Shown in pieces: positions 20,360-28,248 of a stretch of 64,000 nt of DNA; position 1 is the stretch's first letter, and each line of letters starts with the position of its first letter. This stretch comes from Candidatus Methanomethylophilaceae archaeon. GTDB lineage: Archaea; Thermoplasmatota; Thermoplasmata; Methanomassiliicoccales; Methanomethylophilaceae. The notes beneath the pieces are model-generated. The model ran no database searches. It had not been told where the DNA came from and saw nothing but the letters and a program-made list of their open reading frames with translations. Made by a program: the position numbers and the translations under genes. The stretch lies in NCBI GenBank assembly GCA_017524805.1, contig JAFXUX010000033.1, forward strand, positions 124,001 to 188,000, written 5' to 3'.

Positions 20360-23300
20360 TCACAGGTAGTTGTAGTAGAGGATGACATCCTCAGTGATGG
20401 GTCCGAAGACGACTTCGGTGTTTTCCGAGTCGATGACGTTGAGGGTCAGAGTGGATCCATCGTGGGTGGTGGTGGCAGGAGCGTAGCTGTACGTTCCGTA
20501 CTCCTCGAAGGCGATTCCCATCTTCTTTCCGACGTTGTCTCCGTAGGCCTGGATGACCTGGTTGAAGTCATCGCCGTAGTTGACGTCGAAGGAGAGGTTG
20601 TATCCGGGGTCTCCCTGGAGCCAGAGCATGACATGCTTCTTGACGTGGTCGAAGGTGAACTCGATGGTGTTCACAATCTTGCTTCCAGTGGGGTTGGCCT
20701 GGACGGTGATGGTGTACTCCTCAGCGGAGGTCAGGACGTATCCCTCGAACGCTGCGGGGGCAGCGGGAACTCCCTTGGAGGGGTATCCGGGATAGTTCAT
20801 GTAGTTATAGGTGTAGGTTGCGCCGTAGTCCTGAGCGGAAGAGACACCAGGAACGATCTCCTGTCCTTCGCAGGTGAAGATGACGTTCACAGCGTACTTG
20901 AGAGCAGTCCTGTCAAAGTTAGCGATGACAGTCCAGTCCTCGGTAACGACGGCGGGAGCGTTGTCCCATCCAGCGAAGCTGTAGGTGTAGTCGCCGAGAG
21001 TGGAGACAGCGGGAGTGGCGGTGGTGATTCCGTATGCTCCGACGGTCAGAACGTTGTCGGCGGTGGTGAGCTGAGTGCCGTAATCGACGGTGTAGAAAGT
21101 CTTGTCGACAGTTCCCCATCCGACGGGCTGAGCGACGACGGTGACGGTGTACTGGTTGACAACCCTCTCGAAGTTGGCGATGACGGTGCTGTTTCCGGTG
21201 ACGGAGTACTCGGGGATGTCCCATCCTACGAACTTGTAGGTGTACTGGGCGTCAGCGGGGGTGGGGGTAGCGATGGACTGGGTTCCATCGACGGTCAGGA
21301 CATTTCCGGCCGCAGAGATCTTGTCGCCGTAGTCAACGGGGATGACACTGACGGAGACAGTTCCGTATCCGGCAGGCTGAGCGATGACATTGACGACGTA
21401 TCTGTTGACTTCCCTGTCAAAGTTAGCGATGACGGTGACGTCACTGGTAACAGTGGTGGTGGGGATGGTCCAGTCGACGAAGTAGTAGGTGTACTGGTCG
21501 TCAGCAGGGGCGGGAGTAGCAACAGAGTTGCCCTTTCCAGCGACGGTGAAGGTCTGGCCGGCAGCAGTCAGAGCGGTTCCGTAGGGAACGTTCTCGAACT
21601 TGTCGACGGAGACGGTTCCGTATCCGGCAGGCTGAGCGATGACAGTAACGGTGTACTCGTTGACAACCCTCTGGAAGTTAGCGATGACGGTGACGTCACT
21701 GGTAACAGTGGTGGTGGGGATGGTCCAGTCGATGAACGAGTAGGTGTACTGAGCGTCAGCGGGGGTAGGAGTAGCAACGGAGTTGCCCTTTCCAGCGACG
21801 GTGAAGACGTTGTCAGCAGAGCTCAGAGTGGTTCCGTAGGGAACAGCCTCGAACTTGGCGACGGAGACGGTTCCGTATCCCTCGGGCTGAGCGATGACGG
21901 TAACGGTGTATCCGTTGACAGACCTGTCGAAGTTAGCGATGACAGTGGTGTCTCCGGTAACCATCGCAGGAACGTTGGTCCAGTTGACGAAGAAGTAGGT
22001 GTACTGAGCGTCAGCGGGAGCAGGAGTGGCAACAGAGTCTCCCATGTCAGCGACAGTGAAGACGTTGTCAGCGGTGCTCAGAGCGGTTCCGTAGGGAACG
22101 CCGTTGAAGACACCGACAGAGACGGATCCGTAGCCCTCAGGCTGAGCGATGACGGTGACAGTGTACTCGTTGATTTCAGGAGCGAAGTTGGCGTATACAG
22201 TGCAGTCTTCAACGACCTTGGCGGGGACATCGGTCCAGCCGGCGAAGAAGTAGGTGAACTGCGCGGTGGGTGCGTCAGGGGTAGCGACGGAAACGAGGCT
22301 GTCGTAAGAAGCGGAAAGCTCGTTGCCGTTGGTGGTGAGGGTGGTTCCGTAGGGGACGACAAACTTGTTGACGTCGACGGTTCCGCTCTCTCCCTGAGTG
22401 AGGATGGTAACGGTGTACATGATGGGCTCGTACCAGAAGATGTAGTGGTTGTACTCGGCCATGGCAGCGACGTATGCGGCAATCATGTCTTCAGTGATGG
22501 CAGGCTTGCCCATTCCGCTGACCTGAGGCTCAGTGGTCTTTCCACCGACACTCTTGATGTACTCAGCAAGGGTGAGTCCGTAGAGGTCCTGAGGAGCGTC
22601 TGCGGGGGTCTTGATGCTGGCCTTCATGTAGTACGTGGAGTACTTCTGGAGGGCCTTGGTCTTGTCGTAGAAGTTCTGAGCGCTGGGGTTCTCAACGGTC
22701 ACACCATCTTCGTTGGTGAGCTCGAATCCAGGAACGTCGTCAGCGAAGACGTAGAACTCGTTGTAAGCGTAGAGTCCGTTGTTGTTCCTGTCAACTCCCC
22801 AGCTTCCCCATCCGTACTCGGAAGGGAGAGCGGCACCGGTCTCAGGGTTGACGACGGGGGCCTCGGTGGTGACATCGTAGAAGTCAACAACGTAGGGGAA
22901 AGCTCCGTAGTCGAACTCGGATCCGACAATGTACTAGTGAGTGTCCTTGACTGCGTCGAGGTAGTAGTAGATGAAGGCTTCGACGTAGACGGGGTAAGCA
23001 GACTGACCGTTGACGGTGGGCCAGAGGTCAGGGGTGCAGACGATGTCCTCAACATAGGGCATTCCGTCGACTTCGAAGACCTGGTAGCAGACCTGCTTCG
23101 AGCTGATGATGTTGTTGGCGCCATCAGAGAAGTAGAAGGTAACAGCCATGTTGGCCTGGTTCCTGTAGGGCCAAGCCTTTCCTTCAAGGATGCTCTCGCT
23201 GAAGTCGAACGAGACGGTCCAGAATTTGCTGTAATCGCACACAGGAGCGACTTCGCTTATCGGATAGTAGTCATACCCAAGGGTGACATCGAAATCGATG

Positions 23301-23461
23301 TTCCTCTGGGGAAGTCCGGTCTGCTCAGAGAATTCTTTGTCGACAGCGGTGTCCGCATCGCTCATGACGGCAGGTACTGCAGCGAGAACAATAGCGGAAA
23401 CAGCAATGACGGCAAGAATCGCTGCGAACAGGGATTTCTCCGATTTATATGCTGTATTCAT
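20360..23461 (-). CDS. Secreted Listeria-Bacteroides repeat protein with an in-frame UAG
   Basis: One frame runs from the ATG at 23461 (GGAG 8 bp upstream) to the TGA at 20360, with a single TAG at 22934-22936 as codon 176. Total length is 1033 residues if the TAG is read. Residues 1-35 are a signal peptide (MNTAYKSEKSLFAAILAVIA...). The codons just after the TAG look fully coding: all eight Tyr are TAC, all six Phe TTC and all six Asn AAC over 77 codons. They encode an EF-hand-like calcium loop, DRNNNGLYAYNE at 224-235. From about residue 350 come six clear tandem repeats of roughly 85 residues (YTVTVIAQPEGYGTVSV ... DVTVIANF), of the Listeria-Bacteroides type, plus a diverged seventh. No membrane anchor is seen. 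Either UAG is read as pyrrolysine or only a 175-residue secreted fragment is made. Confidence 0.85.
20885..22420 (-). repeat. Tandem coding repeats, about 255 bp each
   Basis: Six conserved units and one diverged unit inside the secreted repeat protein. Units start at YTVTV(I/V)AQP or a variant and differ by a few substitutions. The nucleotide sequence is also strongly conserved between units, which suggests recent duplication or gene conversion. These are protein repeats, not a CRISPR array. Confidence 0.85.
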
Positions 23462-24244: not shown

Positions 24245-25612
24245 ATGACCGATTGGAAAATCACTGCGATAATTATCGCTGTGCTTGCTGTCGCGGGTGC
24301 GGCATCGATATGCGCTGCGTTCGCGGACGAGACCAACGGCGAGATCACCCCCCAGGTAGTATGTGTGGAGTATGACTCGACCAAAAGCACCAACATAATT
24401 ATCACCACAGACATCAACTTTGAGAACAGGATCTGCCATTATCAGATCTACAACAAAGACAATGCCCTCCAGTTCTCAGGTATTGCGATGTCTCCGTCCA
24501 ACGTTTTCTCGATCGATTCCACCAAAGGAACCCACTCCATGACGTTCACCGACGGAGTATACCATCTTTTCTTCGACCAAACTGTCTACGAGTACGAATT
24601 CAGCATAATGAAAGTGGTATTCAACGGGAATGGAACCGCGTTCAAGTCCACCACCGCCCACCTTTCCACTGACACCCTGTCGAATTACGGACTCCCCGCA
24701 GGCTACAACTGGAACACGAACAGCAACGGAACCGGAGCTTGGATCTCCGACCTCTCCCTGGCGGATTTCGGCGATGACTGCTCGCTCACCCTTTACGCAT
24801 TCAAGAGCGGAAGCACCGGAATCTCCATCGTTTCCGATACGTTCACCGTCATTCCCGGCGCCGACGCCACCGTCATCCTCGAGCTCGACAACAACTCCGG
24901 AATATCCCAGCTTGACCTCAGCATCGGATACGACCGCAGCGCCATGAAGCTCAAAAGCGTCTCTGCCGGTTCGATAATGACCCTCGGAAAGTATTCCACT
25001 TCCGATTATCCGTTCGTCGCAAGCCTCTCAAGCAAGATCAATTCGCTAGGCCTCGGAACGCTCCTGACTCTCACTTTCACAGTATCGTCCGACGCCATCG
25101 AGGGGCAATACCCCGTCAAGATCACCGTCACCTCCGCCGAAGACCAATACGGAAAGCTTCTTCCTTCTTCGGCTACCGGATGCGCGATAACTGTTGGCGA
25201 GAAGATGCGCGGAGACCTCGATGGAAACGGAAGGATCAACGCGTTGGATTCGCTCATCCTCAAGAAATACATCGCACACAACCCCGTGAGCGTTTCCGAG
25301 GAAGACCTGAACCTCAACGGAGATACCAGAGTCAATGCTTTGGACTCTCTCCTCCTCAAGAGATACATCGCGCACAACCCGGTCATATTCGCCGATTTCC
25401 CGAACGATGAAGTCTCGATGACCATAACCGAATCCGGTTCTACCAACGAAATCGAAGGGGTCTACGTCGGAGAGAGCGTTTTCGTCTCCAGCGAATCTGG
25501 AACCTCCGCAACCGTGACCGCCAACGGAAGCGCCGTTTCTGTGACTCCCCTTGGCAGCGGAAGATTCACTTTCGTCGCGCCTTCCAGCAAGATTTCGGTC
25601 AATATCCACTGA
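24245..25612 (+). CDS. Secreted protein with cohesin-like domain and type I dockerin
   Basis: 455 residues. Signal peptide 1-27 (IIIAVLAVAGAASICAAFA). Residues 122-187 look like a Listeria-Bacteroides repeat (VVFNGNGTAF...YGLPAGYNWN). Residues about 195-318 resemble a cohesin: FTVIPGADATVILELDNN, SQLDLSIGYDRSAMKLKSV and YPVKITVTSAEDQYG are the family's strands. Residues 322-380 are a dockerin with two calcium loops in duplicated segments: GDLDGNGRINALDSLILKKY and LNGDTRVNALDSLLLKRY. The C-terminal 75 residues are a small beta domain. Carrying both cohesin-like and dockerin modules, it could bridge or polymerise surface proteins. Confidence 0.8.
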   Translation: MTDWKITAIIIAVLAVAGAASICAAFADETNGEITPQVVCVEYDSTKSTNIIITTDINFENRICHYQIYNKDNALQFSGIAMSPSNVFSIDSTKGTHSMTFTDGVYHLFFDQTVYEYEFSIMKVVFNGNGTAFKSTTAHLSTDTLSNYGLPAGYNWNTNSNGTGAWISDLSLADFGDDCSLTLYAFKSGSTGISIVSDTFTVIPGADATVILELDNNSGISQLDLSIGYDRSAMKLKSVSAGSIMTLGKYSTSDYPFVASLSSKINSLGLGTLLTLTFTVSSDAIEGQYPVKITVTSAEDQYGKLLPSSATGCAITVGEKMRGDLDGNGRINALDSLILKKYIAHNPVSVSEEDLNLNGDTRVNALDSLLLKRYIAHNPVIFADFPNDEVSMTITESGSTNEIEGVYVGESVFVSSESGTSATVTANGSAVSVTPLGSGRFTFVAPSSKISVNIH

Positions 25613-26727: not shown

Positions 26728-27411
26728 TCATCCTTCTTTCTTGATGGCCTCCAGAAGGCCGCTGAAGGTCGGGACTGGAGATACCAGATCAGGTTCCCTT
26801 CCGAACCCCTTTAAGGCCTCGGCGGTGAGCGAATCGACGGCGGCGATCTTCACATTGTCATCCATGTATGCCCTGGAGTCGTCTTCGCCATACTTTTCGT
26901 CCATGAAGCCGTACAAGAACCTTACCGCTTCAGGTGAGGTCATAGCCAACCAATCCAGTTCGCCGCGTTTTATTGCGATCATTATGTGCAGCAAAGGATT
27001 CCCGATGCCAGCGGGCGACGATCTGTAAACCATGGCTTTATTTCCGTCGCTGACTTCGGACAGTTTTGCCTCATCCCCTACCATAAGAGCGCCGCCGTCT
27101 CCGCCGGCAGAAGATTCTATCCCTTTGCGGCGCAGGCATTCGGCGGCCGATCCCGAAGCATAGACAGGCCCTTTGAACATTGTCCTGAAGCCGCCTTTGA
27201 AATGGTCGAAGCATTCCTCGACCGCGGTGGAAGTCATGAAGACAATAGGCCTCCCTGCGGATGCGGCCTCGGATACTTTGGCGTATTCGCCGTCGCCGCC
27301 TTTGACTATCGTGATCGAAGGTGCGGCCATGACTGAGAAGCCCATCGCCTCCGCTTCTTTGACTGAATCGACTATCCTCCTGGTCGTGCGCATGAAAGCC
27401 AATCTGGTCAT
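26728..27411 (-). CDS. hemD: Uroporphyrinogen-III synthase
   Basis: 227 residues, usual length. The opening MTRLAFMRTTRRIVDSVKEA, the mid-domain VFMTSTAVEECFDHF, YRSSPAGIG and the second-domain WLAMTSPEAVRFLYGFM are the recurring landmarks of the otherwise variable HemD family. It closes hydroxymethylbilane to uroporphyrinogen III, the branch point to siroheme, cobamides and coenzyme F430. Its start is 48 bp behind the end of the hemC-like gene, so the two were probably an operon. Confidence 0.85.
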   Translation of the reverse strand: MTRLAFMRTTRRIVDSVKEAEAMGFSVMAAPSITIVKGGDGEYAKVSEAASAGRPIVFMTSTAVEECFDHFKGGFRTMFKGPVYASGSAAECLRRKGIESSAGGDGGALMVGDEAKLSEVSDGNKAMVYRSSPAGIGNPLLHIMIAIKRGELDWLAMTSPEAVRFLYGFMDEKYGEDDSRAYMDDNVKIAAVDSLTAEALKGFGREPDLVSPVPTFSGLLEAIKKEG

Positions 27412-27459
27412 CTTATCCTGCCGCTCCCAACGCCTTCATCGTTTATGTGCATGCCGACC

Positions 27460-28248
27460 TCAGATCACTTCGTCGCGCTTCCCATCCAGATATTCTGCTA
27501 TCCCGAGAAGATCGTCCATGACATAATCCGCCTGGACGTACTCGTCAGCGCTCCTGAGCTCCCCGCGGATGCTGGAGACTGCGCGGATGCGGACGAACAT
27601 ATCTTCCATCTCTCCGGAGATGCCGACTGGGGCGGATGGCCCGGCGCCCATCAGCTTCATTATGCCTCTCTCCGCGCCGGCCTCTATGCGCGTCGGCATG
27701 TGGTTGAATGACGAAGCCCATACTCTGGCGCGGCAGGAATCGGCCCCGCATAAGACAGCTATGATTCCTTGGGAGGCCGCAGGCATTATCCCCTCCAGCG
27801 GTTCGCAATCCGCCTCCGGATAGGCCAGCCTGAATTCTTCCTCTGGGATGACAGCGACAGAGGATCTCCCTTCGGCGACGGCTTCCAAGCACGCCTCCGG
27901 ACGGCTTTCGAAGGAGAGCTCCAGCTCCGGGAAGGACTCCGCCAAAATACTGGCGGCTATGGGCACGCACACCGACGCTGAGGAGCCGGACGACAGCCCC
28001 TCCAATCCATAAGGCACCGCCACATACCCTCTGCTCCCGCGCTCCAGCATCGCGGCCACCGCCAATCCTCCCTCCAATTTGATCGGGAGATGGCGGAGCA
28101 TGCATACCAGAACCTCATCCTATCCTATGCGCCCAGACCATTCGCCGGCATACTCGATCGGAACGCCTTCGCCTCTCGCGGATGCCAGCGATACAAACTT
28201 TTCCGCCGCGGCACTATCCGCGAATCCCCAGCCGGAATAAACGCGCAT
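27460..28248 (-). CDS. HemC-like protein, catalytically degenerate, with an in-frame UAG
   Basis: One frame from the ATG at 28248 to the TGA at 27460 (262 residues), with a TAG at 28120-28122 as codon 43. Both sides align with porphobilinogen deaminase. Before the TAG, MRVYSGWGFADSAAAEKFVS matches the RIATRGS...LA start. After it, MPAASQGIIAVL matches the PA.GQG motif, and NHMPTRIEAGAERG...GPSAPVG matches the C-terminal cofactor domain. Key residues are gone: the Asp of HSMKD is His (MLRHLP), the Arg pair of TSSLRR is absent (SSGSSASV), and the cofactor Cys of GGCQVPIG aligns with Pro. It cannot work as a normal deaminase. It may be a decaying hemC or a retained non-catalytic partner for HemD. 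If UAG ends translation, a start at 28101 would give a 213-residue fragment. Confidence 0.65.

Follow-up and report, generated by a model that had tools for sequence, protein, structure and literature searches.

An intact gene for a divergent paralogue of porphobilinogen deaminase (hereafter HemC') in an archaeon of the family Methanomethylophilaceae, within Methanomassiliicoccales, contains an in-frame UAG codon that very probably serves as a sense codon for pyrrolysine, at a presumably near-neutral site of a probably non-catalytic protein, and was probably gained in the common ancestor of this archaeon and one related species. The window, that is, the whole stretch of 64 kb that was analysed (G000:C33:124001-188000), comes from a 1.95-Mb archaeal genome, denoted G000, which is 98% complete and is assembled into 47 contigs. 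The matches to this genome within the same genus are rumen MAGs labelled as Methanomethylophilaceae, Methanomassiliicoccaceae or Thermoplasmata archaeon, and G000 belongs to the rumen-type Methanomethylophilaceae.

The HemC' gene (27460-28248, minus strand), delineated by its translation, orthologues and predicted structure, consists of 262 codons including UAG43. The CTA at positions 28120-28122 of the plus strand reads as TAG on the minus strand, and when this codon is translated as pyrrolysine (O), the minus-strand frame from 28248 to 27463 encodes a methionine and 41 further residues, O43, and another 219 residues, followed by a TGA stop codon (27460-27462, minus strand). The initial annotation had claimed that reading through the TAG joins segments of 42 and 219 residues in one frame, which is exactly the case, and that both segments match HemC, which holds only in part. 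The two segments indeed belong to a single HemC-like protein that aligns with orthologues from the same genus from residue 1 to residue 262 (72, 48, 47 and 41% identity), but this protein matches ordinary HemC only weakly (Pfam E-values of 0.045-0.12; 36.1 bits with the NCBIfam hemC model TIGR00212, below the curated cut-off of 164) and only from residue 44 onwards, the N-terminal 42 residues matching the orthologous paralogues and not the ordinary HemC profile. Because of this weak match, 'hemC-like' is to be understood here as denoting a paralogue and, judging from the sequence, not the working hemC.

In G000, UAG is rare as a terminator. With TAG treated as a sense codon, a simple home-made caller yields 40 genes in the window, 34 of which end with TGA and 6 with TAA; no TAG lies close to the 3' end of any of them, in agreement with the original observation that no gene in the window ends in TAG. 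The same picture emerges from a sample of 455 kb, taken in stretches and amounting to approximately 23% of the genome, in which 390 genes were called, with 349 TGA and 41 TAA ends. About 20 TAGs are located inside frames in this sample, about 15 of them, including those in known methyltransferases, with coding signal on both sides; a few are at doubtful gene starts, and about two called genes resemble true TAG ends, with a short, non-coding-looking tail. Base composition does not account for the scarcity of TAG ends next to 349 TGA ends because TAG and TGA consist of the same bases.

The AlphaFold model of HemC' (pLDDT 72, pTM 0.71; residues 183-219 poorly predicted) has the porphobilinogen deaminase fold: its best Foldseek matches are hydroxymethylbilane synthases (E-value 1e-14, TM 0.69), and a profile built from five HemC' orthologues finds porphobilinogen deaminases among the PDB structures (E-value 1.5e-16). 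In the model, the N-terminal 42 residues lie within domain 1 (pLDDT of about 90 for residues 1-20), of which they supply the opening elements (strand, helix, strand), and residue 43 falls in a predicted loop (37-44) ahead of strand 45-50 of the same domain; in the profile alignment, it corresponds to the residue that directly precedes position 75 in E. coli HemC. The active site has fared differently. At the positions that we take to be those of the active site and cofactor in E. coli HemC numbering, the alignment columns show replacement of Lys83 by Arg52, Asp84 by His53, Arg131 by Ile, Arg132 by Ala, Arg149 by Ser, Arg155 by Cys and Cys242 by Pro204. Accordingly, the catalytic Asp and the substrate-binding Arg and Lys are not present in the aligned HemC', and the cysteine of the dipyrromethane cofactor, which G000 retains in its genuine HemC, is Pro204. 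HemC' is, by its sequence, a fast-evolving paralogue in which all seven of the residues examined, from the active site and the cofactor attachment, have been lost; the alignment and the model together indicate that the fold is kept and catalysis probably lost, in species with and without the TAG alike. The TAG is not the cause of the lost active site because the residues are gone in the species without the TAG as well. Residue 120 (alignment column 148, that of HemC Arg155) is a Cys in all seven HemC' sequences covering it and is possibly a new functional residue.

Comparison of the locus among related genomes shows that the nearest relative shares the TAG, with zero frameshifts and dN/dS well below 1. 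This relative (G026, rumen MAG Tb.RUG.172) is a different species with an independent assembly, and its HemC' is the orthologue with 72% protein identity. Conservation of the TAG at codon 43 thus involves two species, G000 and G026; elsewhere, the codon is GAC (Asp) in G027 and G018, GCG (Ala) in G001 and AAG (Lys) in G006, and the HemC' fragments in G011 and G002 are uninformative at this position. Because the site is variable among the orthologues, the alignment suggests tolerance of, and not selection for, pyrrolysine at codon 43. In the phylogenetic tree, which left out the genuine HemC of G027 and G018 and that of G029 (by length) with no effect on the HemC' clade, HemC' forms one clade (support 100/100) in which G000 and G026 are sisters, and therefore a single gain of the TAG suffices.

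Between G000 and G026, the frame remains intact over all 262 codons at a pS of about 0.57, with a pN/pS of 0.28 overall; pN and pS are 0.138 and 0.588 after the TAG, and 0.295 and 0.486 before it. The first 42 codons show an excess of synonymous changes in the comparisons with G026 (Fisher p = 0.045), G027 (6e-6) and G018 (0.002), and the identity in this N-terminal segment is above that in all 100,000 shuffles. The significance in the closest pair is only moderate because the N-terminal segment (22 of 42 residues identical) evolves faster than the rest of the protein. These substitution patterns point to purifying selection on the HemC' frame on both sides of the TAG. A TGA noticed inside the G018 orthologue proved, on inspection, to be the stop codon of that gene itself.

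These data bear directly on the reading under which the UAG is a true stop codon and a 213-residue product is made from Met50 (ATG at 28099-28101, minus strand), the only nearby internal start, with the first 42 codons left as a leader or a remnant. In both species with the TAG, this ATG lies seven codons past it, and conservation is lower in the N-terminal segment than in the remainder of the protein, as such a start would have it. However, Met50 is equally invariant in the three orthologues without the TAG and hence is not there as a start; the GAGG located 13 nt upstream of the ATG is missing in G026; the first 42 codons are under protein-level selection and, in the model, build the initial elements of domain 1; and UAG is essentially unused as a stop in G000. 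We consider translation from Met50 very unlikely.

The possibility that an extra copy of hemC is decaying and has acquired the TAG as a nonsense mutation draws on the rapid evolution of the paralogue, its missing active-site residues and the presence of a complete hemC elsewhere in the genome. Against decay stand not only the intact frame in G000 and G026 and its low pN/pS, but also the genomic context. In G026, G027, G018, G001 and G006, the same gene order is kept, namely, an SSF transporter, UPF0029, an ABC protein, a large 1470-residue protein, HemC', HemD' and a RecG-C-terminal-like protein, and the C-terminal motif of HemC' is retained along with this synteny in five or more species. The syntenic partner HemD', a member of the HEM4/uroporphyrinogen-III synthase family (26728-27411, minus strand, directly downstream of HemC'; PF02602 E-value 3.2e-15), is itself conserved, its identity to the G000 copy being 84% in G026 and 63-65% in G027, G018 and G001. 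Neither frame-breaking changes nor relaxed selection in HemC' were found when G000 was compared with the orthologues. Decay thus appears very unlikely, and the contention of the initial annotation that the interruption is hard to explain by chance decay is borne out by the retention of the TAG in G026 and the selection on both sides of it.

Translation of UAG43 as pyrrolysine, the reading that we favour, is backed by a complete pyrrolysine system encoded in the genome, so that read-through, as opposed to decay, is supported from this side as well. On contig C25, pylT, the gene for tRNA-Pyl(CUA) (G000:C25:7127-7197), is followed by pylS, pylB (432 bits against a cut-off of 348), pylC and pylD; that is, tRNA-Pyl(CUA), PylS and PylBCD are all present. 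After the pyl genes on the same contig come mtbB and mttB, each with one internal TAG, and each of the two mtmB genes of G000 also contains one. A match to the PylS model was detected in all 31 genomes of the genus (31/31), the score exceeding the curated cut-off in 27, and in this lineage UAG normally stands for pyrrolysine. A reading in which another suppressor tRNA inserts one of the standard amino acids at the UAG is in line with the Lys codon (AAG) at this site in G006, one step away from TAG, but is extremely unlikely given the presence of tRNA-Pyl(CUA) together with its dedicated synthetase and the genes for pyrrolysine synthesis, and no second CUA tRNA was found in the stretches scanned, which cover part of the genome. 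A sequencing or assembly error at the TAG base, conceivable in an assembly fragmented into 47 contigs, has a negligible chance because the same TAG is present in the independent assembly of another species, amid synonymously different flanking codons (GGA TAG GAT GAG in G000, GGC TAG GAC GAA in G026). A PYLIS-like stem-loop after the UAG is neither strong nor shared in G000 and G026 (z of -1.4 and 0.05); a downstream RNA element is not considered obligatory for pyrrolysine insertion (PMC4153887).

Under the pyrrolysine reading, tRNA-Pyl(CUA) would be charged by PylS with pyrrolysine supplied by PylBCD and would decode UAG throughout a genome from which TAG stops have nearly vanished. In the ancestor shared by the G000 species and G026, codon 43 would have mutated to TAG and thereby come to encode pyrrolysine, in the predicted loop immediately before a domain-1 strand where the relatives have Asp, Ala or Lys, and the residue would since have been kept as a near-neutral replacement. 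The putative product is a single 262-residue chain with the porphobilinogen deaminase fold, devoid of the catalytic and cofactor-anchoring residues and made next to its HemD-like partner.

HemC' is not the only gene of this kind in the window, as had been pointed out at the outset. The second one (20360-23461, minus strand) encodes a large protein with a hydrophobic start and contains a TAG at 22934-22936 (codon 176), which is kept at the matching position in three further species, G026, G027 and G018 (THOYIVG, QYOLIIG and QVONIIG). Conservation of the TAG runs deeper in this gene than in HemC'. The gene is adjoined by another (24245-25612) whose archaeal protein product contains cohesin and dockerin type I domains ( Pfam E-values of 3.2e-7 and 1.3e-13). 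Among the tetrapyrrole biosynthesis genes of related genomes, the genuine hemB of G001 (G001:C72:28715-29659) and the genuine hemD of G026 (G026:C106:6763-7452) each contain a single in-frame TAG. To judge from these sequences, the functional tetrapyrrole enzymes of the genus probably include some that contain pyrrolysine, and the TAGs in hemB, hemD and the 20360-23461 gene together fit a genome-wide sense reading of UAG.

The genuine hemC of G000, with the motifs SLKDIP, IRR, RGNIHTR and GAGCSSPVG, is on contig C26, beside hemB and hemD. The genome accordingly holds two hemC-hemD sets, the complete one beside hemB (G000:C26:6156-6764) and the divergent HemC'/HemD' pair (26728-28248 of the window). 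In six genomes that are 94-99% complete (G007, G019, G030, G009, G020 and G005), hemB, genuine hemC and genuine hemD were not found; in G005, G006, G010 and G011, some of which are incomplete, the search likewise failed to detect hemB or the genuine forms of hemC and hemD and identified only HemC'- or HemD'-like copies. Methanogens require F430, and the absence of these hem genes may reflect tetrapyrrole auxotrophy or salvage. One can speculate, quite tentatively, that HemC' and HemD', as descendants of two tetrapyrrole enzymes, form a pair without catalytic activity, which in rumen methanogens would bind or sense tetrapyrroles or assist in scavenging them, pyrrolysine possibly having a role of its own in the species with the TAG. 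What is less expected here is a HemC/HemD pair that is conserved and apparently without catalytic activity. The more general implication is that, in this lineage, UAG acts as an ordinary sense codon that can settle at neutral sites and persist across species, and because of this, standard annotation splits such UAG-containing genes in two.

An archaeal code in which all TAG codons stand for pyrrolysine has reportedly been described by Kivenson et al. (Science, 2025). As in that code, TAG appears here as a genome-wide sense codon in archaea of the Methanomethylophilaceae type, the HemC' case being argued from codon usage and comparison only. HemC' resembles HemC, that is, porphobilinogen deaminase, in the overall fold and domain order, but has about 30 fewer residues ahead of the TAG site and has the equivalents of Asp84, Lys83, Arg131, Arg132, Arg149, Arg155 and Cys242 replaced. 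Pyrrolysine in many non-methyltransferase proteins of the order has already been published, and HemC' is a new but ordinary example. For Ca. M. alvus, where TAG accounts for 1.6% of the stops, Borrel et al. (2014) put the number of further predicted Pyl proteins at 16 (PMC4153887), and the 2016 report on the ISO4-H5 genome gave 46 amber-containing genes (PMC5011839). HemC' resembles these putative non-methyltransferase Pyl proteins of Methanomassiliicoccales: the gene is intact apart from an in-frame amber codon, the genome has the pyl genes and few genes that end in TAG, and the homologues have a sense codon instead (PMC4153887, PMC5011839). It differs in that a HemC paralogue is absent both from the Ca. 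M. alvus list (PMC4153887) and from the ISO4-H5 genes named in the passages considered (PMC5011839), and in that the HemC' TAG is common to two species and is backed by selection tests.
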